Shown piece after piece: positions 741-30,239 of a stretch of DNA of 52,228 nucleotides. The stretch is from IMG/VR virus record IMGVR_UViG_3300020472_000038, positions 1 through 52,228 of that record; one strand, 5' to 3'. Position 1 is the stretch's first letter. Each line of letters opens with the position of its first letter. The notes beneath the pieces were generated by a model. That model was not told the DNA's origin, did not search any database, and was given only the letters and a program-made list of their open reading frames with translations. The position numbers were made by a program, and so were the translations under genes. The stretch is from a virus.

Positions 741-773
741 AAAACTAGTGGGAGCTGAATAAGTTCTCACTAG
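741..773 (-). terminator. Hairpin terminator between gp32 and the minus-strand tail block
   Basis: A 10-bp stem with two G-T wobbles (CTAGTGGGAG at 745-754, TTCTCACTAG at 764-773) encloses a 9-base loop. Read on the minus strand it is followed by TTTT, as in a Rho-independent terminator, and the tape measure stop codon (770-772) lies inside its 5' arm. On the plus strand it follows gp32 but lacks a U tract, so it may only protect the gp32 mRNA end. Confidence 0.55.
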
Positions 774-14542: not shown

Positions 14543-14722
14543 ATGAGTAAAGAAGGTATTTGGCAAGATTCAAAAGGAATGAAAGATTCTGAAATAGTTA
14601 AAAAATGGACTAAAACATTACACATAGTAGAAGATTCAATAGAACAACTTAAACATCAAAAAACAGCTTTAATAAAAAAGAAAGAAGATATAGTGAATTC
14701 TAAGGAAAACAAAAATGGCTAA
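14543..14722 (+). CDS. Small coiled-coil protein of unknown function
   Basis: 59 aa, starting MSKEGIWQDS. The ATG at 14543 is chosen over an in-frame TTG at 14531 because GGAGGA lies 4 bases before it; those bases are also the last codons of the PAAR gene, which stops at 14541. It is highly charged and helical (IVKKWTKTLHIVEDSIEQLK, then LIKKKEDIVNS) with heptad-like spacing, so a short coiled coil is likely. It overlaps the next ATG by 8 bases, suggesting coupled translation with the 1006-aa protein. Function unknown. Confidence 0.6.
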   Translation: MSKEGIWQDSKGMKDSEIVKKWTKTLHIVEDSIEQLKHQKTALIKKKEDIVNSKENKNG

Positions 14723-17700
14723 TTGGAATAGTAGAGAATTACAAACGCCAGCACCGATTAAAAAAATTGGCCAAAACGCCCAAAATGCAATAAACAATTT
14801 AGATATATTGTTGAAACTTGTCAAACAGGGTGCGGATGTAGCTAAAATGTTTTTATTATTGACCAATCCCGCTGGGGCGATAATTAGATTAGCTGCTGAT
14901 GAAATTATTAAATTGTGTAATGATTTTAAAGAAATTGGAGTGTTTTATTTGTTCATTAATCCAAATGATGAAGGTTATGGAGGACAAACAAGTAGAGAAT
15001 TTGGATTAGCAATAAAACAAGATGAAAATGGTTTATATCAATTTGAACCAAGTTATGGAATGTCGGGCCGAGAATTTTATACTGTAGGTAAAGAATATCA
15101 AAAATCTCTTAATATTGCTGACCTTTCTAAAGATTATAAAGATAATCGTGGAAAAGATAAAGATGATCCTTTATTTGATCCACCAACTCCACAATTTGCA
15201 AATCCACCAGAATGGGAGCTGGGTGGATATGACCCCACAACTTGGACAGGTCATGCACCAATTACTACTATTCCATTAGCTAACGGAATATTCCCACCCG
15301 AAATGAAACCTTCTAAAGTACTTTCAATTATGTCTGAAGCTTTTGATGATGAAGGTGATGTCTCAGTATTTGAAATTAAGCCGGGCTCTAAGAATACTGC
15401 CCGTTCAGCTTCAAAGATTTATACGGCATCAGGTGCCTCTATTGATAAAAATAATTTTGATGCTGATAGATTACAAACTGAAGCACTTTATTTACTACCA
15501 GTTAAGACAGGTACAGCACATTTTGCAAGAACTTTAACTCTTGAGCAACGTGGAGAAATCACTAATCTAGTACAATCGGGGAAACCAAATTTTGCTGGAA
15601 GTTCTAATATTCAAGGAGTTGAAGTTATTGCTATTGTTGCATTAGTTGGTGTAGAGAGTTATCAAAAGTTTGTAGACGCCTTTAAATCCCTTAATAACTT
15701 ATTTGGTGGTATGCCCGGCCTAGCTGAGTTTGCTGATGATATTGCTGCAATTTATGAAAAAGCAACTAACCCACAGGGTGAACCAATGTCTATTATTAAT
15801 GACACAAGGTGGGGATCATTTGTAGAGGGTGATTATATAATTGGTCAAAAAAGTGGCGCAAAAGCTAAAATATCAGAAATAGTAAAAATAGAAGATTATC
15901 AATTGAAAAAAAAGGTAACTAAAGCAGTTAAAACGGAAGATGGAAACACGCACATATTTACAACTTTGGTAGATAATAATTCAAAAAAGGAGATCAAAAA
16001 ACTGGATATTAAAGTCCATATGCAAGGTTCAGAAACTTTCTTTCCAGATGAAAGAATCTTTGAGGGGATAGAGACACCGGCTTATTCCACCGTACACGCT
16101 GACGTGCCCAGTAAGATAATAGTTAAAGCAGCAAAAGGAACAGCTCTTGATCCTAATATACCATATGATCAAGTTAACACAAATGATGTGGCTAGTTGGG
16201 GAGCAGTATTAGGAGTTGATACTTCAGCTCCAGATTCTATTCATCCAGATTGGACATCTATTAAAATAAAAGATGTCATTCCCCATTATGGAGATTTCTT
16301 TGATGAAATTATACAATTTGCGGAAGGGTTAAAAGGGTATGCGGCCGCAGCTGATGAATTTATTGCAAGAATAATAAAACTTATTGATGATACAATTGCA
16401 GAATTTGAAGAAATCGTAAATAAAATTAAAGCATTCCTTAAATTATTTACAGATGGTCTTCCTGACGCAGGAATTTATTGGTTGACAATTAAAACCTATG
16501 GAGGAAATAAAGCTATTCAAGATGCTTTAACTGGTTCAGATGATCCCCCACCAGAAACTTTGAATTTCTGTGCTGGTTTTATAATGGTATCTGTTAGTGG
16601 AGTTGGAGGATTAAGTGCAACAAAAGGTTTAGAATTATTATTTGGTAATAATGGATTTGGATTAGAGTTTCAAGAAGTTGCTCCTATTCCAGAAGAATCA
16701 GAATTAGATTCTGCAGTACAAAAATTAAGAGATCAATACGATGCTGCCAAAGCTGCACAAATAGAATTTGCTACAGATGTTGGTGATGTACTTGGTCTTA
16801 ATCCACCAGTAAAATTTAGAGATGCAACAACGATAAAATTTACAGGTTGGAATGGAGTATCACCTAATGTTGGTGATTATGTTCTTGGAACGAAGTCTGG
16901 ATGTTTTGGACAGGTCGTTCATTTCGGGCCAGGAGAATTAGTATTAGACCATATTAAGACAGGGCCTACAATAGTTGGGACTCTAGAGGAAAAAGAAAAA
17001 ATAGTTAGAATGTTTGGTCTTAGACGCGAGGTGGATTTTCATGGGATAACCATCATAGAGAAAATGGACTATGTGGATTTTCCTTATAATGGAAAGAAAG
17101 CAGAAGCTTCTGTTGAAGGATTTGCAGCTCACATTTACCCTGACGGCCGTGCTCCATTTGGAGGTCTAGATGACTTAGTTTCAGAAGGAAGATTTACAGA
17201 AGAAGTATTGGTAAATAGGTCATCTCATAAACCGAATGGGTCAGGTACTACAGTTTATGAGGTGTTTCAAGGGAATGAAGGTACTTTTGTAGGAGTAGAT
17301 GATGTAGAAGAGTTGGAATCAGAATTTCCTTCACCAGCCAAAATTGTTGTACATGAAAGTCAAAACACAATTTGGGGAATAATAGATGTCACACAACACA
17401 TATTTAAAGTTATTGATGGTTCTGTTAAAGAGCCTGAATTGGAAAGTGGATATAATGGTAAGTATGGCTACTTTACAGGTGATGACATTATTATTTCATT
17501 TAATGAAGAATCTGCTCAAACCTTCCTTGCAGACATTGAAGGTAGGAATACAGGGCCCGACAAGATTACTCGTTTGAAACCACCACCTTCAGCTGAAGCT
17601 CCTGAAGGGATGAAACTCACAGTAGATGGTGATGATGGTATAGAAATAACTGGTGAAGGGGGAGAAGTTGAATCTTATGCTCAAGCTTTGGATAATAAAA

Positions 17701-17735
17701 TAAATCCTAATAATCAACCAGAACGCAACGAATAA
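14715..17735 (+). CDS. Large virion protein of unknown function between PAAR and gp25
   Basis: 1006 aa, not recognised as a T4 protein. The N-terminus is amphipathic and helical with a hydrophobic stretch (MFLLLTNPAGAIIRLAADEI, about residues 50-70). A second hydrophobic segment is near residue 312 (VEVIAIVALVGVESYQKFVD). Residues about 530-582 form a long helical, possibly coiled-coil segment (FFDEIIQFAEGLKGYAAAAD, then EFEEIVNKIKAFLKLF). Two copies of a small beta module occur: GDYIIGQKSGAKAKISEI near residue 375 and GDYVLGTKSGCFGQVVHF near 720, a pattern also seen in gp7, gp8, gp13 and the DUF4815 protein. Position in the baseplate operon suggests a structural role; the helical segments would suit a hub- or membrane-contacting part, but that is inference. 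Confidence 0.55.
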   Translation: MANWNSRELQTPAPIKKIGQNAQNAINNLDILLKLVKQGADVAKMFLLLTNPAGAIIRLAADEIIKLCNDFKEIGVFYLFINPNDEGYGGQTSREFGLAIKQDENGLYQFEPSYGMSGREFYTVGKEYQKSLNIADLSKDYKDNRGKDKDDPLFDPPTPQFANPPEWELGGYDPTTWTGHAPITTIPLANGIFPPEMKPSKVLSIMSEAFDDEGDVSVFEIKPGSKNTARSASKIYTASGASIDKNNFDADRLQTEALYLLPVKTGTAHFARTLTLEQRGEITNLVQSGKPNFAGSSNIQGVEVIAIVALVGVESYQKFVDAFKSLNNLFGGMPGLAEFADDIAAIYEKATNPQGEPMSIINDTRWGSFVEGDYIIGQKSGAKAKISEIVKIEDYQLKKKVTKAVKTEDGNTHIFTTLVDNNSKKEIKKLDIKVHMQGSETFFPDERIFEGIETPAYSTVHADVPSKIIVKAAKGTALDPNIPYDQVNTNDVASWGAVLGVDTSAPDSIHPDWTSIKIKDVIPHYGDFFDEIIQFAEGLKGYAAAADEFIARIIKLIDDTIAEFEEIVNKIKAFLKLFTDGLPDAGIYWLTIKTYGGNKAIQDALTGSDDPPPETLNFCAGFIMVSVSGVGGLSATKGLELLFGNNGFGLEFQEVAPIPEESELDSAVQKLRDQYDAAKAAQIEFATDVGDVLGLNPPVKFRDATTIKFTGWNGVSPNVGDYVLGTKSGCFGQVVHFGPGELVLDHIKTGPTIVGTLEEKEKIVRMFGLRREVDFHGITIIEKMDYVDFPYNGKKAEASVEGFAAHIYPDGRAPFGGLDDLVSEGRFTEEVLVNRSSHKPNGSGTTVYEVFQGNEGTFVGVDDVEELESEFPSPAKIVVHESQNTIWGIIDVTQHIFKVIDGSVKEPELESGYNGKYGYFTGDDIIISFNEESAQTFLADIEGRNTGPDKITRLKPPPSAEAPEGMKLTVDGDDGIEITGEGGEVESYAQALDNKINPNNQPERNE

Positions 17736-17759: not shown

Positions 17760-18152
17760 ATGCCAACATATAAAAAATCTTATGCAGATTTGAGTTTTGA
17801 TTTTACAGCAAATCCACAGACAGGAGATGTTGCAACAGTAAAGGATGCGGTTTCTGTAAAGAGAGGAATTAAAAATATATTATTGACTGAGGGTTTTGAA
17901 AGATTATTTCAACCAGAAATAGGTTCTGGAATTAAAAATTTATTATTTGAACCAATGACATCTCTTACTGAACAAAGATTGGCAGATGTATGTAGAGATG
18001 CTATAGATGCTTGGGAAAAAAGAGCCTCAGTAATTAATATAACAGTTATTCCAGAAGAAGAATATAATCGTTATAGAGTTGCTATACAATTTAAAATTAA
18101 TAATTCTTTAGAAACAGAACAAGTTGATGTATTCTTAAATAGAGAGAGATAA
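17760..18152 (+). CDS. 25: Baseplate wedge protein gp25
   Basis: 130 aa, the usual size for the GPW/gp25 family (T4: 132 aa). The signature is clear: an N-terminal SYADLSFDFTANPQTGDVAT, then AVSVKRGIKNILLTEGFERL and FQPEIGSGIKNLLFEPMT, followed by RDAIDAWEKRASVINITV. gp25 sits at the inner ring of the wedge, touches gp6 and gp53 and primes sheath polymerisation; it is conserved in all contractile injection systems. It lies next to gp6, its contact partner, as in most contractile systems. Confidence 0.94.
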   Translation: MPTYKKSYADLSFDFTANPQTGDVATVKDAVSVKRGIKNILLTEGFERLFQPEIGSGIKNLLFEPMTSLTEQRLADVCRDAIDAWEKRASVINITVIPEEEYNRYRVAIQFKINNSLETEQVDVFLNRER

Positions 18153-18155
18153 CCG

Positions 18156-20048
18156 ATGGCCGATGTAGCTTCTAAACTTAAAGTATCCGAATTAGATTTC
18201 GATGCTATTAAATCAAATCTTAAAAATTTTTTAGGTGATCAAAATGAGTTAGCTGATTATAATTTTGATGGTTCAGCAATGGCTGTTCTTATGGATCTTT
18301 TGGCTTACAATACTCATTACAATGCATTTTATTTGAATATGATTGTAAATGAGATGTTCCTTGATACGGCATCTCTTCGCAATTCCGTAGTATCTAGAGC
18401 CAAACATTTGGGGTATACTCCCACTTCTGTTAGGGGTGCCAAAGCTTATGTTGATTTAACCATCACTCCTGCAAACACTCCTGCAACGATTGTTATTGAT
18501 AAAGATACACAATTTAATACCACAGTAAATGGTATTTCTTATATATTTTCTACATCTAATTCTACTACTTTAAATGTCAACTCAAATGGTATATACACAA
18601 CAGCTAATGTAGAATTACAACAAGGTATTCTTTTAACACATAGGTATAGCGCAAATACTAATGATCCAGATCAAAGATTTATTTTACCAAATGCTAATAC
18701 AGATACAAGCTCACTTACAGTACAAATACAAACTTCTGCAACTAGTACAAATTTACATACTTATTCAGTTGCAAATGATACAACTTCAATAAACTCTACA
18801 GCTAATGTATACTTTTTAGAGGAAGATACAGATAGTAAATACAGAGTATATTTTGGAGATGATAATATTGGAAGAGGCCTAACAAGTGGTAATATTATAA
18901 TTTTGAAATCTTTAATAGCTGATGCAACTGCTCCAAATGGTGCAAAAACATTTACTCCTGTTGGTTCGGTTGGGGGATATTCAAATGTTACAGTAACGAC
19001 AGCATCGGCTGCAGCCGGTGGAGCAGATAGAGATTCTATTAGTGATATAAAATTTAATGCACCCAAAAATTATCAAGCTCAAAATCGTGCGGTTACAATT
19101 AATGATTATATTAGAATAGTTCAAAGAGATTATCCAGATGCAGAATCCGTCATAGCTTGGGGTGGAGAAGAAAATGATCCACCAGTTTATGGTAAAGTTT
19201 ATATGGCTGTAAAACCAGCTAGTGGATTACAGTTATCAGCTACTACAAAGAATTCTATCAAAAATGATATTTTATCAAAAAGAAATGTAGTCTCTATTTC
19301 AACTGAAATGGTAGATCCAGATTACTTATATTTGACTTTCAATAGTACTGTTAAATATGATTCTTCTAAGACTTCAAATACAGCAGCCACTATTTCAGAT
19401 TTAGTTTCTAATACTGTTTACAATTATGGTGTAGACAATCTTAAAGGTTTTGCAAATGAATTTAGATATTCACCTTTAACCAAAAAAATTGATGAATCTG
19501 AAACTTCAATTGAAAGTAGTCTTTCTACAGTTAAATTAACAAGAGTATTTGTTCCTACTCTTAATGTATCTAGTTCTTATGCTCTATCATATTCAAATGA
19601 AATTTTTCATCCTTATGCTGATTATGTAGATTCCGTTACTAGTACAGAATTTTCTCATTATGATGAAAGTGACACCTTACGAACAACTTGTAATATACAA
19701 GATTCTAATGGGGTGTTACAAGTTTATCGTACATCGGGAACAACAAGAATTATTGTTGCAAACAATGTTGGAACTGTTTCTTATGGTTCGGGTGTAGTCT
19801 CACTTGCTGGATTTAAACCAGTTGTAATTTCAGATGGTACTGCCAATTTATCAATAACTGTTGCATTAGCTTCAAGCGATGTTATTCCTGTCAGAGAACA
19901 AATTTTACTTATTACTAACAATAATATTACAGTATCTATGGTTGATACTTACGGAACAGGCACAAGCACTACTGAAGTGTCTTCTACTGCCAGTGGATCA
20001 ACCGCTGGAGGTACTTCTGGTAGTGGTGGTTCGGGAAGTAGTTACTAA
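18156..20048 (+). CDS. 6: Baseplate wedge protein gp6
   Basis: 630 aa (T4 gp6: 660 aa). gp6 dimers form the ring that holds the baseplate together. The N-terminal helical region is typical (LDFDAIKSNLKNFLGDQNEL, MAVLMDLLAYNTHYNAFYLN, then DTASLRNSVVSRAKHLGYTP). The middle has KYRVYFGDDNIGRGLTSGN, a gp6/gpJ family signature, and FNAPKNYQAQNRAVTINDYI leads to the DYPDAESVIAWGG segment and YGKVYMAVKP. The C-terminus ends in a Gly/Ser/Thr-rich tail (STASGSTAGGTSGSGGSGSS), probably flexible and unusual for gp6. The stop overlaps the gp7 start by one base (TAATG). Confidence 0.92.
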   Translation: MADVASKLKVSELDFDAIKSNLKNFLGDQNELADYNFDGSAMAVLMDLLAYNTHYNAFYLNMIVNEMFLDTASLRNSVVSRAKHLGYTPTSVRGAKAYVDLTITPANTPATIVIDKDTQFNTTVNGISYIFSTSNSTTLNVNSNGIYTTANVELQQGILLTHRYSANTNDPDQRFILPNANTDTSSLTVQIQTSATSTNLHTYSVANDTTSINSTANVYFLEEDTDSKYRVYFGDDNIGRGLTSGNIIILKSLIADATAPNGAKTFTPVGSVGGYSNVTVTTASAAAGGADRDSISDIKFNAPKNYQAQNRAVTINDYIRIVQRDYPDAESVIAWGGEENDPPVYGKVYMAVKPASGLQLSATTKNSIKNDILSKRNVVSISTEMVDPDYLYLTFNSTVKYDSSKTSNTAATISDLVSNTVYNYGVDNLKGFANEFRYSPLTKKIDESETSIESSLSTVKLTRVFVPTLNVSSSYALSYSNEIFHPYADYVDSVTSTEFSHYDESDTLRTTCNIQDSNGVLQVYRTSGTTRIIVANNVGTVSYGSGVVSLAGFKPVVISDGTANLSITVALASSDVIPVREQILLITNNNITVSMVDTYGTGTSTTEVSSTASGSTAGGTSGSGGSGSSY

Positions 20049-23000
20049 TGATAGAAGATGGTGGAATTCTTTATAGTCAGATAGATTCTCAACTCCCTAG
20101 TTTTGTTCAAACTGACCATACGAAATTTTCTAAGTTCATACAGAAATACTATGAATTTCTTGAACTAAATCTTATTACCTTTACAGATTTAGATCTTAAT
20201 GCCGATTCTATTATACAAGAAAAGGCAGATACCACATATACTATAACTGTTGCTACTGGTAATAACGCATTCAGTAATTCCGCAAATAAATTTTATGTTG
20301 ATGGTGCAGTTTCTCCAACCATAACTCTTATTCCTGGCGCACACGCAATTTTTGATCAAGGTGATGAAAATAATGTCGGTCACTATTTTCATATATCAAG
20401 AACACCAGACGGTATTCATACTGCGGGTGGTAAACAATTCACTACTGATGATAGAGAAGATGTTCTTTTTACTTTTGTAGGACAACCCGGCGATTATGAT
20501 AATATTACACTTGAAGCAGAAACTGGAATTTTACTTTATGAGGATTACCTAGACTCTGCCACTACTTTAGATAATCTTACACTTGAAGATGCATCTGGAA
20601 TTTTACTTTATGAAGATGATGTAGAACTTGGTTTTGAGACAACACCCGATAGAGAAATTGGTCTTGAAGCATCTGCTACTATAAAATTTTATGTTTCACC
20701 AGATCTTGCCGGTGAAACTCTCTACTACTACTGTAATAATCATTCTGGAATGGGTGGAAATATTACAGTATCTACAACAACAAGTTATATTTCTCAAGAA
20801 AATGGAAACACCCATTCTGCAAATACCTCTACTGAAGACTATCTTACTCTTGAAAATCCTAATAGACAAGGTGAACAATTTTTAAGTGGGGAAACTATTC
20901 TTGGAGCAAACTCTGGTGCTACAGGTATTGTTAGAGGAAAATATTCAACTACTCAAGCTTTTGTTGAAGAGACAAATCATGGTTCTTTTGAAGTTGGTGA
21001 AACTATTAAGGGTAAAACTTCAAGAGTCACTGCCACTGTAAATTCATATTCCAGACAACCAATAAATGCATCAAGAAATGTAAAAGCTTTCCAAGATATT
21101 GATAAAGCACCAGTTGGTTTTGTTGAACTTTTTAGAAAAGAATTTTTAACTGGATTTAGTAAAAATGATGATATTAATACCCCCAATCTACTTAAACATA
21201 TAAAAGATTTTTATCGTTCTAAAGGTAATGAAAATTCCTTTCGTTTTATTTTTAGTTTACTTTTTGGTATAGATGATGTAGAGTTTTATTATCCTGGCCA
21301 GGATATTATGAGACTTTCTGATGGAAGATGGACTCTTGATAAATCAGTTAAACTTCTTACAGACTCTGCAAGTTATGTAGATTCTTTTCTTGGTAGAACA
21401 ATCGTAGGTCAGACATCTAATGTTTCTGCTCTTGTAGAACGAATTGAAAGATATCATGTTGGAGCACAAGATATTACGGAATTATTTTTATCTGGATTTG
21501 ATGCTAATAACGCCGCTTATCAAGCAACTACAGGAACTAGCTATACTACGTTTTATTTGGGTGAAGTTATAACAGCTAATAGTGCAGACTCTGATGGTAA
21601 TTATGCAACAGCAACTACAAGTGGAGTTTTACAGGGCGTTGATATAGTCTATGGAGGATCTGGCTATAACAAAGGTGATGAACTACGAATTACTGGTGGA
21701 GGTGGTGCAGAAGCCAAAGCTAAAGTTAGTTCAATAGCTGCAGCTGCTCTTACTGGAATTGATGTTATAGATTCGGGAGATGGATATAGTGTAGGTGATG
21801 TAGTTACATTTTTTAATGATGGAACTGGTGGAACTGGTGGTTCTGCTAGAGTTCAAAGTATTGTTAAAACAGTAAATGTATTTACACAAACTGAAGTTAT
21901 TAGTACACAGGGGAGTACTACATTAGACGCAGCTGCATTTACTGCGCCGTGGGGAAGTTATAACAGAAATACTCATAGTTCATCAAACTCTACTACTACC
22001 TTTACTGTTCCATTTGATGGTCTTTCTGGTGGTGATACTCCGAAACAAGGAGATTTTATTGCAAAGTTTGGTAGTGGTGAAAGTATTTCTTTATATACTC
22101 CTGGCACTTCAAAATTTGGTACTGTTATTAGTACGAATTCTACATCTATTACTTATGGATTAGGTTCTATTGATTATACTACATCTTATAATTCAGATCC
22201 AACTCTTAATAATTTTGTAAATAATGATACAGTTGTTATTTTTGATCTCACCAAAGATAAAGATGGTTCTGCAGTAACATCTAATGCATATAACTCTACA
22301 TTCCGCGCGACTGGAGCAACCATTGCTATTAATGGAACACCAACTGCTAATACTGATAGTACTTATCATGGTGCAGCAACAATGCAGGAATCATCAATTG
22401 GTGGTATTCGTTCACTTCAAATAATGTCTTCTGGACAGGGTTATGAGACAATTCCCCCTGTCTCTATAGCAAACACCGAAATAACTTTTTACGATAATTC
22501 ACCAGAAAAGGTTGGTGCAAATTCAATATTTGTTAATCTTGCAAATACAGTTGCAAATATATTTACTTCAAACACTTTAATTAAGAATCAAGGAAACACT
22601 GCCTTTGGTATTCTCCTTGATTATCTTGATCTTGCTTCAACAACTTTAGCTGAAACAGGAAATACCACTCTCAGAATTCAGATGACAAGTGCGAATACAT
22701 TCAGTCCGAATGATGTTCTTACTTCTTATAGTAGAGCTGATAGTTCTCCAAGTGGAATTGGTGTTTTTGGAACTGCAAATATCTCAACATCTGGAACTAC
22801 TGCTACATTCACACAAGCAGATCATGGATTTGGTGCAGGAGATAGAATTGTAATTACTGGTTCTTCATCTGCAACAGATAATACTGTATATAACAACAAC
22901 CATACAATTGCAGGAATTACAAATTCCTCTGTTTACACAGTAACCCTTGCAAGTGATCCAAGTGATGATAGTGAAACCTCTTTAACTGTCAGAAAAATTG

Positions 23001-26000
23001 TTACAGCAAATGTGGTAGCTGATCTATTACTTACTGAAGATTCCACCACTACACAAATATCTTTTGAAAATGGAGTAGGAACTGCAAATGATGATTATAG
23101 TAGTTCTACAAGTAATGGATCTATTATAGTTGAAAGTGGAATAGATGAAGCAAATTCTATATTTGCAAATACTGGAATCCCTGGCAATAACGCAATTATT
23201 CAAGTTTCAAAACTTGCTGTTGGTGCAATTGAAAGTGTTTTAGTTTATGATTTTGGTGCTGGATATTCTTCAGCTCCAACAATTAATGCTTCAGCTGTTG
23301 GAGATGGTTCTGCAACATTGACAGGTAATGTTGGTGTTTATGCAGAATACTCTGGATATTTTGATGGTGAATATGGATTATTGAGTGGTACAAACAAAAT
23401 GCAAGATAACTTGTATTATCAAGATTTTTCCTATGTAGTTAAAACAAATAAAGACGTTAATACTTACAGAGAAAAGATATTAGAATTAGTACATCCAGCT
23501 GGAATGGCTTTGTTTGGTGAAATCTTAATGTCAGCTAACTTGTCTGTTAAATTATTTGATGATGGTACAAGTAACATAAGCAGTACTCAAGCAAATACTG
23601 AGATGGTTGCAAATTCAGTTAATGTTCCACGTTATCATCATCATGAAGTCGAATTTTATACTAAAGACACAACTTCAACCAACAATCAGATTTCAATGGA
23701 AAGGAGTTATGAACTTAAATCATTTTCTACTGAAATAACTATAATTGAAAAATTTGATGTAAACATGGACACTACTGGAGCTAGTAGTGATTTTGATTTA
23801 CAATTAGAACATGGTCATGATTTAATTTCTTTAGAAAATTCTGGTTTTTTCCTTGCAGCTGAAAATACTGGTGAACTTCTTCTTGAACGAGATATTGGTG
23901 GTGGAGTTGGAGATAGACTAATTGAAGAAACCGCGGACTTTTTACTAACTGAAGCCGAAATAGTTCATGTACTTTTAGAAGAAGATTCTAATGATACTGA
24001 TGAAGATATACTTCTTTTAGATGATGGAGAAACAGATAAAGGTAATGCTTCTATTATAGGTGCTTTATCAGACGAAAATCAAAGTGATTCTTCTCCAATA
24101 ATATATGAATTTTTTGAAGCAGAGCTTGGAAATATTCTTACTGAAGATGGTGATGGTATAGGTGTTAATTTAATAAGTACTGATGTTTTAGAAATAGAAG
24201 AATATAATGGTGACTTTATTGTTTTGGATGGTATTAGAGAGTTTGGTTATACATTGTTAGAAGACGGTGGCCAACTTCTTTTAGATGAAGTTACACTTAC
24301 TGGTGGGCCCATTGGATTTGAATCGGGGCGTGGTACAGTATTATTGAATAGTACAGATGGAGCTCCCGGCTCTAATGCTGGGGATCAAATTGTTACTGAA
24401 GATTATACATTTGAAGCAGAGCCTGGTTCTGTATTAACTGAAGATACTGGACTTGAAACTACAGGTGGTGGAACATATCTTGTTCAAGAAGATGAAGCTG
24501 GTAAATTTTCACAGGGATTTAAAATACAACAAGAGGGTGTTTTTACAGCTGTTATAACAGAAGGTCGGCTCGTACAAGAAAATGAGTTTTTTATATTACT
24601 TGAAAACCAAATAGCTTCAGCTGACTTTTCATTATCATTAGAACCTACAACTCCTAATGCATTTTCTGGCCCACAGACAGCTGTATATATGGAATTAGAA
24701 AATTCCATAGGTGGTGATTCTACTGTCAGACCAGATAAAATTTCACATTTTGTTTTAGAAGAAGATGAAGATTTAGTTCAAACTTTAACATTAGAAGATG
24801 GAACTGGTGACATTATATTTGAAAATGGTAAGGGTCATGTCCGTCTTGAAATACAAGGAGTAGCACAAACAGTTAAAATTCGTAATGAAGATGAAGCTTC
24901 AAATTTTAAACTTGAAGACTTTGAATCAGTTCTAGTACAAGAAGAACAATATCAAATTCAACTAGAATCTTATACTCTTCCCTCTCTTACAGATGTGGGA
25001 TTTCTTGTAAAAGAAGATAATGATGCTCTTCATCTTGAAGAAGCTGGTGCATATGATACTGATTCAGATGAGTTTTACGCTACTCACGGCCTCTTTACAT
25101 TTGTCAAAGCCTCAGCTAGATTAAATTCTCAAGATAGTGATATGAGAGATGTGAAGTTTAATAATGATGGAACTAAAATGTTTGCGTTAGGTAGGGGTAA
25201 TGATGGAGTTTATGAATATTCATTATCAACAGCATTTGATGTTTCAACATTGACTTTTGTTCAGAAGTTGGATATAAGTGGTGAAGAGACATCGGCGAAT
25301 AGTTTAGAATTCAATCTAGACGGAACTAAATTGTTTGTGTTAGGTCAATCTGATGATAATGTTGATGAATATGCTTTAAGTACAGGTTTTGATATCTCAA
25401 CAGCCTCCTTTACAGATAGTTTTGATGTAAGTACTCAAGAAACTGCACCTTATGGTTTGGCATTTAATAATGATGGAACTAAAATGTATGTTTGTGGTTG
25501 GAATGGAGATGACATTAATGAATATACATTAACAACTGCATTTGATGTTTCGACAGCATCATATTCTCAAAATTTTTCAATAAATGCTCAACGTGCAAAT
25601 GCATCAGCAGTACAATTCAATGCAGATGGAACTAAAATGTATGTTTTACAGGGCAACCAAAATTCTGATATTTTTGAATACGCACTAGTAACTCCATTTG
25701 ATATTTCAACAGCATCTTATACAAATAGAACTCATGATTTAACAAACGAAGAAAGCAGAGCAAGAGGCTTCTGCTTTAGTAATAATCATTCTCAGCTTTT
25801 TGTAACTGGTTGGACTGAAGATGAGATTAATGAATATACTGTAAATTATACTCTTCCAGATGAATCGGGAGCTGATTCTGGAATAGATGATACCCCCTTC
25901 TATTTTCGTCTTGAGGATGATGTAGATGCTAGAGCTTATCTGTTGGAAGAACCTACAACAATCTATCATAGGATTGAGAGTGAAAATCCAGCTGATGATT

Positions 26001-28471
26001 TTGTTATTGTTACGGATGACGCAGAAGATACTATAGTACTTGAAATAGAAGAATTTATTACTGATACAAATTTTAAAGGTGAGTCTTATGATACTGGAAC
26101 TGGCTTCATGTTACCGATGCTTATTTTTCCAACAGCCGAGTCTGGTTCTGCATTATTGGATCTTAGTTTTACAAGTAGAATAGTATTAGAAATTGATGAT
26201 ATTCAAAATGTAAGATTAGAAAATCAAGATGGTAGTCTTCTTTTAGAAGATGGTGGTGTTGTTTTTTATGAACAGCAACCTACAACATCTGTAGGTTATC
26301 AATATGATATGTTACTTCTGGAAGAATCTGATGGTACAAATCCAGTATTTATTGCTACAGAATCTTCTATGACTGAAGAAATAGATGGTATAGGAGAGAT
26401 TGAATTATTTTCTGATGGTAATTATTCACTTCAGCTTGAAGGTGCACATGGAATTCATGATAATGGACTTCTTGTATATGAAAATGGAGGTTTTACATTA
26501 GAAGCTGGTACTAATGCTGAAGGTGTTATTATTTTTGACGGGCCAACGGCTGATGATGGAGATAGATCTCTTTTAGAAGATGGAGTAGAAGATACAATTG
26601 GAGTGAATCAACCTCAAATTGCGGCATCAGTTAGATCTACAGTTTCAACTTTAAATACTGGTGACACTCTTAATGAAGGAAGTTTTCTTGGATCAGATTT
26701 TGGAGAGAGAACATATGGATCAGTTGCTCTTTCATTGTTACCTAGTGAATTTGAATTTTTGACTGAAGATGGAAAAACCTTTGTTACAGAAGAGAGTACA
26801 ACTAGAAAAGACAATCTTATATCTGAAGCTTATGATAGGGGAATAGTTGCAACAGGAACGGCCACTCAATTTGAATTTGATTTTAATAATCTTATAGTTC
26901 TTGAACCCGATTGGACTTTAGATGTAATTGAATTAGAAGATGGTTTGGGTAAAATAATAGATGAACACGGTTATACTGTTGTACTTGAGATTCAAGCTGC
27001 AAAACCAGAAGTTGGTGTGATTATACTAGAAACCGATACACCAGAAGAAAATTCAATTATTTTAGAATCTGATGACCCCGATGTTATTATTCCTCTTCAA
27101 CAAGAACAAGGAGAAGGTAAAATTTTTACAGAGGAGGATATACACCTATTAATTCCATCTCCCGAAAGACTTTGTGGTGTTGGACTTCATGATTTAATTT
27201 TAGAAGAAGAGGGCATTCTTCAAGAAGAATCTGACCAAATTAAATTAGAAGATTTTACACTTGATAATATTACTCAAGAAGATCCAGTTATGGGAGATTT
27301 TGTTCCTTATCTTGGATTTGGAGATGAGGGGGATAATTCTATAACTATAGATGATAATATGTTATTAGAATCTACAACGCACAAAACTGAAAATGTTTGT
27401 GTTCAGACTGAAGATGGTGATTTGATTGGACAAGAAGATGATGAAACATCTCATATAGTTTTAGAGGATTTTTATTTTAAATATTACAATGTAGGAACTA
27501 TTACTCAAACTGGAACAACCATAACTGTATCTGGAGGCCAATTTCCTTCTGCTGTTGTAAATAGTGGAAGATTTTTCTATGAAAGTGGTACATCATCAGA
27601 TCTTAGTGATAGAAATGGAGTCGAATCAACAGATATTATATCAATATCGGATAGTGGTCTGGAACTAACAGTTGAAGCTTCTAAATCAATAAGTTCTGCA
27701 CAACATTATAAAGTTGAATATGGACTTGATGATACTCCTGTAACCGCTCCAGCAGAATATTTGGTAATGGAAGCTTACACTCTTGATACTACAACTGAAC
27801 AAGTTAGAATTGATATAATTTTTAACGGAGAAGGCGATGTTAATCATGGATATACTAGGGGTGAAGATTCGGATGGTCTTGGAACTTATACTGTAAGTAT
27901 TTCAGCATTTGCTGATATCATAGGAAATGATGTTACATATGAAGATGGAGAAAGGATTTTAGCTGAAGATTCAATTGGTGGATATATTGCTTTTGAAGAT
28001 TCTACTCAAAATGTCTCTTTAGGAATTGCTCATGGAAAAATATTAAATGAAGATGATACTGGATGCTTCATATCAACTGAAGATCATGAAGGTAATGAGA
28101 CAACTCAAGATGATAATGTTCTCATGAAAGAAATGTCGGACGCACTTCTATTAGAAGATAGTGAAACTGAAACTTTGAATTATGTATTGAGTGAGGAAGA
28201 AGGACAAATGATGCTTGAAGATGTATTTCAAGTTTCAGAACATAAAATAATTATGGATAGTCATGATTCTATATTAATAGAAGACCAACCAGACGGTGAT
28301 AATTGGAATTATAAATTATTGAATATGGATATGGGAAGATTTGATATTGAAACAATAGCTAATAATGCATCTATGACTATTCAATTTACTGATTCATCAA
28401 CCAGTTCAACAGATTTTTTCAAACGATCTGATTCTGCCATACTCGTTTCAAGAACAGAACAGATTGTTTGA
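20048..28471 (+). CDS. 7: Giant gp7-like baseplate wedge protein with cupredoxin-like, propeller and LEDG-repeat insertions
   Basis: 2807 aa against 1032 aa in T4. The slot between gp6 and gp8 and the scaffold pieces at residues 1-60 (DSQLPSFVQTDHTKFSKFIQ, KYYEFLEL) and about 350-455 (NLLKHIKDFYRSKGNENSF, then DDVEFYYPGQDIMRLSDGRW) support gp7. The rest is a patchwork: a cupredoxin-like domain (about 62-242), SGETILGANSGATG-type modules, GSGY modules (about 530-610), an ADHGFGAGDRIVITG module (about 930), more than 40 acidic LEDG-type repeats (about 1250-1680 and 1945-2790), and a five-unit propeller-like repeat (about 1685-1935). TREKILELVHPAGMALFGEI-like sequence near 1140-1160 is a conserved marine gp7 segment. 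In T4, gp7 links gp6, gp8 and gp10 at the wedge periphery, so these insertions are probably exposed on the outer baseplate. Confidence 0.78.
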   Translation: MIEDGGILYSQIDSQLPSFVQTDHTKFSKFIQKYYEFLELNLITFTDLDLNADSIIQEKADTTYTITVATGNNAFSNSANKFYVDGAVSPTITLIPGAHAIFDQGDENNVGHYFHISRTPDGIHTAGGKQFTTDDREDVLFTFVGQPGDYDNITLEAETGILLYEDYLDSATTLDNLTLEDASGILLYEDDVELGFETTPDREIGLEASATIKFYVSPDLAGETLYYYCNNHSGMGGNITVSTTTSYISQENGNTHSANTSTEDYLTLENPNRQGEQFLSGETILGANSGATGIVRGKYSTTQAFVEETNHGSFEVGETIKGKTSRVTATVNSYSRQPINASRNVKAFQDIDKAPVGFVELFRKEFLTGFSKNDDINTPNLLKHIKDFYRSKGNENSFRFIFSLLFGIDDVEFYYPGQDIMRLSDGRWTLDKSVKLLTDSASYVDSFLGRTIVGQTSNVSALVERIERYHVGAQDITELFLSGFDANNAAYQATTGTSYTTFYLGEVITANSADSDGNYATATTSGVLQGVDIVYGGSGYNKGDELRITGGGGAEAKAKVSSIAAAALTGIDVIDSGDGYSVGDVVTFFNDGTGGTGGSARVQSIVKTVNVFTQTEVISTQGSTTLDAAAFTAPWGSYNRNTHSSSNSTTTFTVPFDGLSGGDTPKQGDFIAKFGSGESISLYTPGTSKFGTVISTNSTSITYGLGSIDYTTSYNSDPTLNNFVNNDTVVIFDLTKDKDGSAVTSNAYNSTFRATGATIAINGTPTANTDSTYHGAATMQESSIGGIRSLQIMSSGQGYETIPPVSIANTEITFYDNSPEKVGANSIFVNLANTVANIFTSNTLIKNQGNTAFGILLDYLDLASTTLAETGNTTLRIQMTSANTFSPNDVLTSYSRADSSPSGIGVFGTANISTSGTTATFTQADHGFGAGDRIVITGSSSATDNTVYNNNHTIAGITNSSVYTVTLASDPSDDSETSLTVRKIVTANVVADLLLTEDSTTTQISFENGVGTANDDYSSSTSNGSIIVESGIDEANSIFANTGIPGNNAIIQVSKLAVGAIESVLVYDFGAGYSSAPTINASAVGDGSATLTGNVGVYAEYSGYFDGEYGLLSGTNKMQDNLYYQDFSYVVKTNKDVNTYREKILELVHPAGMALFGEILMSANLSVKLFDDGTSNISSTQANTEMVANSVNVPRYHHHEVEFYTKDTTSTNNQISMERSYELKSFSTEITIIEKFDVNMDTTGASSDFDLQLEHGHDLISLENSGFFLAAENTGELLLERDIGGGVGDRLIEETADFLLTEAEIVHVLLEEDSNDTDEDILLLDDGETDKGNASIIGALSDENQSDSSPIIYEFFEAELGNILTEDGDGIGVNLISTDVLEIEEYNGDFIVLDGIREFGYTLLEDGGQLLLDEVTLTGGPIGFESGRGTVLLNSTDGAPGSNAGDQIVTEDYTFEAEPGSVLTEDTGLETTGGGTYLVQEDEAGKFSQGFKIQQEGVFTAVITEGRLVQENEFFILLENQIASADFSLSLEPTTPNAFSGPQTAVYMELENSIGGDSTVRPDKISHFVLEEDEDLVQTLTLEDGTGDIIFENGKGHVRLEIQGVAQTVKIRNEDEASNFKLEDFESVLVQEEQYQIQLESYTLPSLTDVGFLVKEDNDALHLEEAGAYDTDSDEFYATHGLFTFVKASARLNSQDSDMRDVKFNNDGTKMFALGRGNDGVYEYSLSTAFDVSTLTFVQKLDISGEETSANSLEFNLDGTKLFVLGQSDDNVDEYALSTGFDISTASFTDSFDVSTQETAPYGLAFNNDGTKMYVCGWNGDDINEYTLTTAFDVSTASYSQNFSINAQRANASAVQFNADGTKMYVLQGNQNSDIFEYALVTPFDISTASYTNRTHDLTNEESRARGFCFSNNHSQLFVTGWTEDEINEYTVNYTLPDESGADSGIDDTPFYFRLEDDVDARAYLLEEPTTIYHRIESENPADDFVIVTDDAEDTIVLEIEEFITDTNFKGESYDTGTGFMLPMLIFPTAESGSALLDLSFTSRIVLEIDDIQNVRLENQDGSLLLEDGGVVFYEQQPTTSVGYQYDMLLLEESDGTNPVFIATESSMTEEIDGIGEIELFSDGNYSLQLEGAHGIHDNGLLVYENGGFTLEAGTNAEGVIIFDGPTADDGDRSLLEDGVEDTIGVNQPQIAASVRSTVSTLNTGDTLNEGSFLGSDFGERTYGSVALSLLPSEFEFLTEDGKTFVTEESTTRKDNLISEAYDRGIVATGTATQFEFDFNNLIVLEPDWTLDVIELEDGLGKIIDEHGYTVVLEIQAAKPEVGVIILETDTPEENSIILESDDPDVIIPLQQEQGEGKIFTEEDIHLLIPSPERLCGVGLHDLILEEEGILQEESDQIKLEDFTLDNITQEDPVMGDFVPYLGFGDEGDNSITIDDNMLLESTTHKTENVCVQTEDGDLIGQEDDETSHIVLEDFYFKYYNVGTITQTGTTITVSGGQFPSAVVNSGRFFYESGTSSDLSDRNGVESTDIISISDSGLELTVEASKSISSAQHYKVEYGLDDTPVTAPAEYLVMEAYTLDTTTEQVRIDIIFNGEGDVNHGYTRGEDSDGLGTYTVSISAFADIIGNDVTYEDGERILAEDSIGGYIAFEDSTQNVSLGIAHGKILNEDDTGCFISTEDHEGNETTQDDNVLMKEMSDALLLEDSETETLNYVLSEEEGQMMLEDVFQVSEHKIIMDSHDSILIEDQPDGDNWNYKLLNMDMGRFDIETIANNASMTIQFTDSSTSSTDFFKRSDSAILVSRTEQIV
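20231..20773 (+). other. Cupredoxin-like domain within gp7 (residues about 62-242)
   Basis: Strand pattern YTITVATGNNAF, KFYVDGAVSPTITLIPGAHA, IFDQGD, then NVGHYFHISRTPDGIHTAGG, and finally ATIKFYVSPDLAGETLYYYC followed by NNHSGMGGNITV. The C-x2-H-x2-M cluster (Cys229, His232, Met235) with an upstream His (112 or 115) copies the ligand set of type I copper proteins such as plastocyanin. Between the ligand-bearing halves (about residues 150-200) sits an insertion of two LEDG-type repeats. Copper binding is inferred, not shown. Confidence 0.6.
20523..20613 (+). repeat. Paired 19-base direct repeat inside the gp7 cupredoxin-like domain
   Basis: CTGGAATTTTACTTTATGA occurs at 20523-20541 and again at 20595-20613, exactly 72 bases (24 codons) apart. 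It encodes the repeated GILLYED strand of two tandem LEDG-type units (LEAETGILLYED and LEDASGILLYED). Confidence 0.85.
23800..25080 (+). repeat. First block of acidic LEDG-type repeats in gp7
   Basis: Short units of the form (hydrophobic)3-LE(D/E/N)-x-G recur every 10-25 residues. Examples: LISLENSGFFLAAENTGELL, DILLLDDGE, ILTEDGDG, TLLEDGGQLLLDE, LVQEDEAG, LTLEDGTGDIIFENGKGHVR, LHLEEAG. Alternating hydrophobic and acidic residues predict stacked short beta strands. Confidence 0.75.
25099..25850 (+). repeat. Five-unit beta-propeller-like repeat in gp7
   Basis: Each unit reads FN-DGTKM-V-G---D-(I/V)-EY-L-T-FD(V/I)STAS. The GATGG/GACGG core lies at 25166, 25319, 25472 and 25625, exactly 153 bases (51 codons) apart; a degenerate fifth unit (FSNNHSQLFVTGW) follows 159 bases later. 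Length and the DG-turn-strand pattern are like YVTN/WD40-type propeller blades. Confidence 0.75.
25890..28440 (+). repeat. Second block of acidic LEDG-type repeats in gp7
   Basis: About 850 residues with the same unit as the first block, for example FRLEDDVDARAYLLEEPT, VRLENQDGSLLLEDGGVVFY, LQLEGAHGIHDNGLLVYENG, IELEDGLGKIIDEHGYTVVL, DLILEEEGILQEESDQIKLE, VLSEEEGQMMLEDV and ILIEDQPDG. The block runs almost to the C-terminus. Confidence 0.75.
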
Positions 28472-28523: not shown

Positions 28524-30239
28524 ATGGCCGCTTTAGTAACTAACAAATTTCGTATTCATAACGCTAAACAATTTATAGAAGCGTTTGACGAGGTGTCATT
28601 TACATCTGGGGCAGCAGTCTCAGACTCTAGTGGACTCCTCAACTCAAATATGTATCTTTTTATAGGAAAAGTAACTGGATGGAGTGATGACGCAAGTCCA
28701 CCCACACCAACCGATTCCGTAGCAAACACACACTATGAGAATTGGCGTGATATGATTGCTGCGAAGAAAGTTACATCTTCAGATGTATCTCACGTTATTC
28801 CAAGAAAGAACTGGACTAATAATACAAACTATTTTGCTTATACTGATAATACAAATTCACTACATAGCCAAGATTTTTATGTAATGACAGGTGATTATAA
28901 TGTGTACAAATGTTTATCAAACAGCGATACAAATTCAGCTGGAGGTGCTGCGTCAACTTCTACTGTTAAACCAACTGGAACTGGAACAGCTATTATTTCA
29001 ACTGCAGATGGTTATAAGTGGAAGTTTATGTATCAGATTCCTGCTTCGGATGCATTAAAGTTTGTTACACCAAACTACATTCCAGTTGATACAGTAAGAC
29101 GATCAAATGGTTATCTTGCAAATACTTTCGACAACGCCCCAGGCCAAGTTCAGTTTGATGTTGAAACTGCAACTGCAGCATCTGGTGGTGGTAATGGTGC
29201 TATAGAAGTAGTTCATCTTACTACTAGAGGTTTACAATATCTTGGAGAAGTGGGTAATGTTTCATCAGTTACAAATACAACTACAGTCACAATTACTGGT
29301 AGTAGTCTTGGTGCTGATGATTGTATTGTAAATAATGACATATATTTCACAAGTGGAGATGCAGCTGGTGAAGGTGGAACTATTACAGATTATAATGGTA
29401 CAAGTAAAGTTGTAACATTTACACCAGCTATAACTGCTCCTTCAGCAACTGATGGGTATGCTATCGGGCCTAAGATTGTAATTTCTGGTGATGGCCAGGG
29501 TGCTAATGTTAGATGTACAGTCAATTCAACTGGTGGAATTAATGCAACAGCTATTATTTCGGGTGGAAACAATTATTCCAATGCATCAATTACTGTTGTT
29601 TCTAATGCTTCTCAATCAAACAGTTTTAATCCAAGTCCCACTGCAGTATTAACTCCAATTATAGGGCCAAAGGGGGGCCATGGTTCAGATGCAGTTCAAG
29701 AATTGGGTGGATTCTTTTGTCTTATTAATTCAAGACTTGAGTATTCGGAATCTAATAACTTTACTACCGATAACGATTTTCGTAAAGTTGGACTTCTTGC
29801 ACAACCTAAATTTTCAAATGGTGATTTTGCAAATACAACTGTAGTTGACCAAGCAACAGCGGCAGTCGTTAGTTCTTGGAACGGAACTGCGTTTGCAGTT
29901 GATGAATTGGTTACAGGTGCTACTTCTGGAGCTACAGGAAGAGTTGTTGATTTTACTGGTAACAATACTATAAGAATGACAGATATTATACCTTCAGGTA
30001 ATTCAACCACTGCTGGATATAATGGTATTTATGGTTACTTTACAAATACAGAAGTTATTGCTGCTAACACAGTAGGAAATGGTGGTTCTGGAGCTTCTGC
30101 TACAGCAAATGGTTCGGGTGCAGTAACTGGTGGAGATTTGGAAAGATTTTCGGGAGACATTATCTATGTAGAAAATAGATCTCCTATTTCAAGAGCAGAT
30201 GACCAAATTGAAGATATTAAGCTGATTATCGAATTCTAA
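28524..30239 (+). CDS. 8: Baseplate wedge protein gp8, enlarged
   Basis: 571 aa against 334 aa in T4. gp8 is a dimeric wedge component binding gp7 and gp10. The N-terminal half aligns with T4 gp8: LVTNKFRIHNAKQFIEAF, MYLFIGKVTGWSDD, PPTPTDSVAN, HVIPRKNW (T4 VIPRRDW), FYVMTGDYNVYKCL and DGYKWKFMYQIPASDALKF. The C-terminus also aligns: GDIIYVENRSPISRADDQIE against T4 GEMIYMENRPPI-MAMDQTE. The extra 230 residues sit before that end and carry modules shared with other virion proteins here: GGNNYSNASITVVSNAS, DELVTGATSGATGRVVDFTG and TVGNGGSGASATANGSG. A strong Shine-Dalgarno GGAGG precedes the ATG. Confidence 0.9.
   Translation: MAALVTNKFRIHNAKQFIEAFDEVSFTSGAAVSDSSGLLNSNMYLFIGKVTGWSDDASPPTPTDSVANTHYENWRDMIAAKKVTSSDVSHVIPRKNWTNNTNYFAYTDNTNSLHSQDFYVMTGDYNVYKCLSNSDTNSAGGAASTSTVKPTGTGTAIISTADGYKWKFMYQIPASDALKFVTPNYIPVDTVRRSNGYLANTFDNAPGQVQFDVETATAASGGGNGAIEVVHLTTRGLQYLGEVGNVSSVTNTTTVTITGSSLGADDCIVNNDIYFTSGDAAGEGGTITDYNGTSKVVTFTPAITAPSATDGYAIGPKIVISGDGQGANVRCTVNSTGGINATAIISGGNNYSNASITVVSNASQSNSFNPSPTAVLTPIIGPKGGHGSDAVQELGGFFCLINSRLEYSESNNFTTDNDFRKVGLLAQPKFSNGDFANTTVVDQATAAVVSSWNGTAFAVDELVTGATSGATGRVVDFTGNNTIRMTDIIPSGNSTTAGYNGIYGYFTNTEVIAANTVGNGGSGASATANGSGAVTGGDLERFSGDIIYVENRSPISRADDQIEDIKLIIEF

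Follow-up and report, generated by a model that had tools for sequence, protein, structure and literature searches.

The window analyzed here is an IMG/VR virus record of 52,228 bases from an uncultured marine phage, taken at its full length. It carries gp25-, gp6-, gp7-, and gp8-like genes for the baseplate wedge (Table 1), and the domain that concerns us lies in the gp7-type protein. A Pfam scan matched this protein to PF23786 (Baseplate_wedge) at 36.1 bits against a cut-off of 27, with the best stretch at residues 373 to 443, and the match to a baseplate wedge PHROG stood at 5.9e-38. We count it among the gp7-type wedges on the strength of a PF23786 score above the curated cut-off and a place among gp25, gp6, and gp8 genes; Pfam, PHROG, and neighbors agree with the original prediction as to the identity of the host protein. 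By gp6, the nearest named phages are Methylophilales phage Melnitz (42.0%) and Pelagibacter phages Mosig (41.4%) and HTVC008M (39.3%). At the DNA level, the window matched none of the phage records, and an NCBIfam scan gave nothing over cut-off. Three large open reading frames (ORFs) of the window (770-3616 on the minus strand, 11619-14240, and 14715-17735) had no PHROG match at the limits used.

The gp7 protein is itself repetitive. Residues ~1262 to 2742 (23831-28273) form an extended acidic stretch in which degenerate units of the LE(D/E/N) type abound; the whole protein has 35 such motifs (1.25 per 100 aa), and most other long ORFs have few or none. Within residues 1780 to 1926 (25385-25825) are repeats of the FNxDGTKMY kind, with a weak Kelch-type match (E 0.00073, below cut-off), perhaps forming a beta-propeller within gp7.

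Table 1. Features of the baseplate wedge locus and of the domain within gp7
Feature	Coordinates	Strand	Basis
gp25-like baseplate wedge gene	17760..18152	+	phrog_261, 3.5e-39
gp6-like baseplate wedge gene	18156..20048	+	phrog_219, 2.3e-165
gp7-type baseplate wedge protein, 2807 aa, carrying the predicted cupredoxin domain	20048..28471	+	Pfam PF23786, PHROG
Predicted cupredoxin domain, gp7 residues 61-246, insert included	20228..20785	+	alignment and models
His112, putative first ligand (His1)	20381..20383	+	invariant among ligand-keeping relatives
His115, rejected as ligand	20390..20392	+	unconserved in relatives
His124, common, non-obligatory	20417..20419	+	often Trp or Asn instead
Acidic 58-aa insert, residues 149-206, between predicted strands 5 and 6	20492..20665	+	alignment; low model confidence
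Putative ligand loop C229-x2-H232-x2-M235 (CNNHSGM)	20732..20752	+	motif scan, conservation in relatives
gp8-like baseplate wedge gene	28524..30239	+	phrog_438, 3.2e-109; named by place and PHROG 'baseplate wedge subunit'

A cupredoxin domain had been proposed for gp7 residues 62 to 242 (20231-20773), and both coordinates and letters are as claimed, with YYYCNNHSGMGG near the end. Across all six frames of the window, the pattern C-x(2-4)-H-x(2-5)-M occurs just once inside a long ORF, at Cys229 of gp7; the remaining matches lie in frames of at most 61 aa. Chance produced C-x2-H-x2-M in 2 of 20,000 shuffles of residues 62 to 242 and in 3 of 2,000 shuffles of the whole protein. Cys229 is the only Cys in residues 62 to 242, and His is found there at 99, 112, 115, 124, and 232; the HxH motif of phage fiber iron sites is absent from this stretch.

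Cys229, His232, and Met235, the three ligands proposed for the C-terminal loop, are present in the window and conserved in relatives. Upstream, both His112 and His115 had been put forward, and only His112 survives comparison: the insert-free orthologues have Arg at position 115, and other relatives have Arg or Met. His124 was considered as well. Its column reads H in 73, N in 13, and W in 10 of 102 complete domains (90% identity), and the frequent Trp and Asn mean that it cannot be an obligatory ligand. What is left is the conserved order His...Cys-x(2-4)-His-x(2-5)-Met of a type 1 copper site. One option raised at the outset, that the site is a structural remnant, is unlikely for the window copy, which retains all four ligands.

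Structure prediction points in the same direction as the ligand order. We built AlphaFold2 models for the insert-free domain of an orthologue (L006, with 36 aligned relatives) and for the window form (42 rows). The insert-free model had a pLDDT of 86.5, a pTM of 0.82, and 9 strands; the window form reached a pLDDT of 68.9, with the insert (model residues 99 to 151) below 50. When the L006 model was compared with the PDB by Foldseek, all 14 matches at E≤0.001 were copper proteins of cupredoxin type or composed of such domains, namely rusticyanin (first, 8.4e-5), copper nitrite reductase, and multicopper oxidase-type proteins. Ranks 1 to 17 for the window-form model were also all copper proteins (best E 5.2e-3, none at E≤0.001). 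VIA-align gave a Z of 9.3 for the L006 model against the N-terminal part of nitrite reductase 2dv6 (rmsd 3.6, 104 residues aligned) and 8.6 for the window form against 2dv6 (rmsd 3.3, 105 aligned). By prediction, the chain has the Greek-key beta-sandwich of cupredoxins (7 to 9 strands). Thus, the observation that residues 62 to 242 form a cupredoxin domain holds in the models, whose matches cupredoxins dominate.

Labels in current databases invite another reading, an immunoglobulin-like domain with a chance motif. BFVD entry M4QD42 (MED4-213) is called immunoglobulin domain-containing, P-HM1 PHM1_104 is annotated as containing PF07686, and antibody chains head the weak PDB sequence matches (E ~0.3). 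We nevertheless give this reading almost no credence and have rejected it: with one Cys only in residues 62 to 242, there can be no Ig disulfide, no Ig chain is among the 14 structure matches at E≤0.001, and no Ig family appeared at E≤0.1 in the scanned part of P-HM1.

Known cupredoxin families are reached by sequence only at a distance. As it stands, the domain belongs to no family by the Pfam scan; with the insert left out, PF00127 (Copper-bind) scored 16.2 bits against a cut-off of 21.2, and weak PF00127 matches were found in 5 of 36 relatives (best E 0.0037). A profile of the domain set against 31 PF00127 domains from the searched genomes scored 20.9, with 30 column shuffles at 7.9 or less and the reversed profile at 4.7, and the alignment placed Cys on Cys and His on His. 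In a second comparison, with 8 short-loop cupredoxins, the score of 21.8 did not beat the maximum of 50 shuffles (25.2). PDB sequence searches with the domain, two profiles, gp7 residues 1 to 666, and the S-CAM22 gp7-type protein returned no related structure and no cupredoxin.

The acidic insert in one loop sets the window copy apart from many of its relatives. That the domain is interrupted by an insertion was correctly anticipated, although not the exact LEDG string: the window insert, at residues 149 to 206, has LEAE and LEDA; LEDG does occur in the insert of the closest relative, L001. A 15-residue unit, NxTLExxxGILLYED, occurs in two near-copies within the window insert. Among relatives encoded on ten viral contigs, inserts of a similar kind are found in L001 to L005 and are missing in L006 to L009, where the gene and the place are the same; L013 has no insert either. 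Because the L006-L009 orthologues do without it, the core of the domain can be put at ~123 residues. The locus L353 has, by eye, a different and shorter insertion in the same loop, and in L348 and L349 the profile match is split as in L353; therefore, this loop tolerates additions. From the order of the strands, the insert loop should share the end of the domain that bears the metal site. As to its origin, the idea that the insert is a copy of gp7's own C-terminal repeats is only partly supported by sequence comparison. Aligned with the C-terminal part of the window gp7, the longer inserts of L003, L004, and L005 each beat all 500 shuffles, and shuffles equaled or bettered the inserts of the window, L001, and L002 in 12, 15, and 2 of 500 cases, respectively.

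Whether the ligands matter is best judged from how they vary. A search that includes the C-terminal motif is bound to favor domains that have it, so we used an alignment of the N-terminal half only, which is blind to that motif. This recovered 80 loci, with 3 domains cut by a contig end and 77 complete, and C-x2-H-x2-M was present at the exact spacing in 76 of the 77. Only L144 deviates, having lost His1, Cys, and His2. Its domain is followed by a further part, IDDIIEEAYERTG. Searching with L144 in turn uncovered a subfamily likewise without ligands (L144 and many of L171 to L250). Together, 250 loci gave 102 complete domains at 90% identity, 81 of them HCHM and 21 without the ligands. A larger set, extended by genome contigs and the first loci from named phages, held 349 domains; 323 were at least 85 residues long with no gap in the four ligand columns, and these came to 157 at 90% identity. 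The 26 rows left out before this count were mostly cut or gapped and include HNNY, HGA-, and HG--, in which His1 is retained without Cys. By eye, the second copies in S-BM1, P-SSM4, and ACG-2014j also retain His1.

The 157 nonredundant domains divide into 130 HCHM, 1 HCHQ, and 26 others, so that 131 keep His-Cys-His. Of the 26 that do not, 25 lack His, Cys, and His together, with Met retained in 22 of those 25; the remaining one, KCTM, retains Cys, and Met is present in 23 of the 26 overall. The HCHQ domain (L300, from Prochlorococcus sp. AG-418-C09) reads C-x2-H-x2-Q, its Met being replaced by Gln as at stellacyanin-type sites; Gln is described as the axial ligand of stellacyanin (PMC4059628). 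In the 131 keepers, 25 columns are conserved at 90% or more. Only four of these collapse in the 26 losers, namely the three ligand columns and one Pro: retention there is 0, 0, and 4% for the three ligands, 19% for the Pro (beside His1 in the alignment), 69 to 100% for the other columns, and 88% for Met, and since the two groups were defined by the ligand columns, the informative part is the joint loss and the steadiness of the other columns. His1 is replaced in the losers by N, F, E, I, Y, Q, K, or L.

The best tree, computed with the ligand columns excluded, requires 6 changes at His1, 7 at Cys, and 6 at His2. Only 1 is forced by strongly supported branches, and independence of the losses is thus likely but unproven. 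In L277, L272, and L296, one domain of a protein retains the set and another has lost it. The ligands therefore do not vary freely: in nearly all relatives, the set is kept or lost together, with other positions mostly steady, and this pattern of apparent selection as a unit argues for a working metal site. Both checks suggested with the original prediction, on the fold and on ligand conservation in homologues, came out in its favor as far as models and alignments reach.

A cupredoxin-shaped adhesion domain that carries no metal, with Cys, His, and Met kept for packing, would fit the existence of ligand-less relatives in which the fold positions are retained, and ephrins are a known case of a ligand-less cupredoxin-fold recognition domain (PMC6485061). 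Packing alone, however, would not give joint loss of three positions and free variation beside conserved neighbors, and we find such a domain very unlikely in the window. The ligand-less subfamily, like the ephrins, shows that the fold can serve without metal, which implies that the metal adds something most copies need.

Which metal is a separate question. Cys-His-His-Met sites can bind other metals in vitro, and the host cytoplasm offers little free copper, so one can imagine that the fold is a structural clip for Zn, Fe, or Ni in nature. We regard this as improbable, since keeping the Cys/His/His trio strictly but treating Met as dispensable is what type 1 copper sites do. Azurin has an invariant Cys, two conserved His, and a more variable Met, as set out in PMC6485061, and the same split, strict for His/Cys/His and looser for Met, is found in the phage domains. 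That the ligands are kept or lost jointly across many related ocean phages suggests metal binding by the particles, with copper the probable metal.

The domain is not confined to gp7. With one 103-aa query, it was found in 257 of 50,697 phage records at E≤1e-3 (another query gave 95), nearly all of them marine: Synechococcus, Prochlorococcus, cyanophage, Pelagibacter, and Methylophilales records, with a few marine or unnamed. Of 19 named-phage loci examined, 17 have a domain match, with none in the gp7 regions of Melnitz and HTVC008M. By eye, complete HCHM domains occur in annotated tail fibers of HTVC028P, Baldr, Bellamy, Mosig, Melnitz-2, and P-SSM2 and, in P-SSM4, S-H35, S-BM1, and S-CAM22, both at the C terminus of gp9 and in a gp7-type wedge; the N terminus of P-SSM4 gp9 matches T4 gp9/gp10. 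In S-TIM5, the domain is in another virion protein, encoded near the portal gene. Several named-phage proteins have degenerate second copies, some with His1, and PSS2 gp080 is a stand-alone copy without ligands. None of the annotations displayed for the named-phage loci contains the word cupredoxin. A further 58 contigs, most of them marine, came from a genome scan; Marine Group II archaea, SAR86, SAR116, Bacteroidetes, and Prochlorococcus are represented, and some of the contigs may be viral. Giant proteins on bacterial and archaeal contigs also carry the domain. We therefore see in it a mobile module, widespread among the structural proteins of marine phages (tail fibers, the gp9 fiber connector, and baseplate wedges), which the original prediction had not foreseen.

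Some of these proteins have further features of their own. In eight loci with Euryarchaeota, Marine Group II, or Thalassarchaeaceae titles (L270, L273, L276, L278-L280, L282, and L283), the domain is near the C terminus of ORFs of ~340 to 440 aa. The S-CAM22 gp7-type protein (L433) has a YHYH match (PF14240, 58.8 bits, residues 679 to 723) directly after its ligand-less second cupredoxin copy, and P-HM1 PHM1_104 (L436) also has a subtilase domain at residues 277 to 584 and a second copy whose match to PF00127 is weak.

Within gp7, the module is restricted to close relatives. A single-sequence search for gp7 orthologues found 1 locus, and an alignment of the part of gp7 after the domain kept 80. 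All 7 orthologues at 60% identity or more have the domain, compared with none of the 73 at 31 to 38%, all of which have complete N termini; the gp7 proteins of Melnitz, Mosig, and HTVC008M also lack it. It follows that the domain was gained, or lost, between the clades, after about residue 60.

Another possible role is a redox or copper-responsive one, in which Cu(I)/Cu(II) cycling or copper loading near the host surface would trigger or gate receptor binding or a rearrangement of the baseplate. In its favor, the electron-transfer cupredoxins have this ligand set, the domain is located in fiber, connector, and wedge proteins, and the HxH iron of the T4 fiber and the Trojan Horse idea offer a precedent for metals in tails (PMC11705849). 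Yet no redox partner is known, and the portal-adjacent protein of S-TIM5 and the giant bacterial and archaeal proteins fit a general module better than a trigger. We consider this role unlikely.

The account we favor, and hold to be probable if far from certain, is that of a true cupredoxin domain whose type 1 site is intact, a mobile marine module that was added to gp7 in one clade and in which copper would be mainly stabilizing. His112, Cys229, and His232 would lie in the plane of the metal, with Met235 as a weak axial ligand. The domain would have entered gp7 in a tolerant stretch past the first 60 residues. We imagine that the chain folds metal-free in the host cytoplasm and, because free copper is scarce there, takes up the metal at or after lysis. 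Once bound in the particle, copper would link the two sheets into a small, stable domain that may be displayed at the baseplate-fiber region in support of attachment or protein contacts. A bolder version can also be envisioned, though we find it doubtful: working type 1 copper centers would serve as a swappable virion module, post-lysis copper uptake or the redox state at the host surface would switch or arm the baseplate-fiber apparatus, and the particles would constitute a pool of strong copper ligands in seawater.

Although the cupredoxin fold and the type 1 site are already known, their recurring use as a virion module is not described in the literature searched. No printed description of a cupredoxin in a phage baseplate or tail fiber was found by a search that left most subscription journals and preprints outside its scope. 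The sole match for cyanophage together with cupredoxin appears to concern Borg elements, and 'cupredoxin' has no occurrence in the Melnitz paper (PMC9004378). Should copper binding by the site prove true, the apparatus that contacts the host would contain an unrecognized metalloprotein in hundreds of known marine phages, and a domain now labeled hypothetical or immunoglobulin-like would gain a name.

How does this module compare with known systems? Within the PHROG collection, families 30742, 27200, 693, 677, and 708 (tail fiber, gp9 connector, and baseplate wedge) each match the domain over part of their length, as did 4 of 4 scanned members, and none is described as cupredoxin in the library output. 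With the type 1 cupredoxins (amicyanin, plastocyanin, and azurin; PF00127), the domain shares the predicted Greek-key sandwich and the His...Cys-His-Met order. Unlike them, the phage copy is a domain of a virion protein rather than a free electron carrier, falls below the PF00127 cut-off, and has a long YYYCxxHSxMGG signature and the loop insert. Rusticyanin and the N-terminal cupredoxin part of Hyphomicrobium denitrificans nitrite reductase are the best structure matches, at 16 to 21% identity; rusticyanin has a longer ligand loop and functions in respiratory electron transfer. In amicyanin, the ligands are given as His53, Cys92, His95, and Met98 (PMC12723479), a C-x2-H-x2-M spacing equal to that of the gp7 domain, and 2 to 4 residues separate Cys and His in blue cupredoxins, according to PMC4059628.

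The receptor-binding domain of ephrins resembles the ligand-less phage subfamily, the fold having been kept and the copper ligands lost; ephrin is an animal protein, and the window copy, by contrast, retains its ligands. Closest in setting are the iron-holding HxH sites of T4 gp37 and marine phage fibers, the basis of the Trojan Horse hypothesis (PMC11705849). There, too, a metal in phage tail proteins is proposed to matter in the sea. The gp7 domain differs in its ligands and probably in its metal and, if our reading is correct, would be the equivalent, for copper, of the iron-based Trojan Horse idea.
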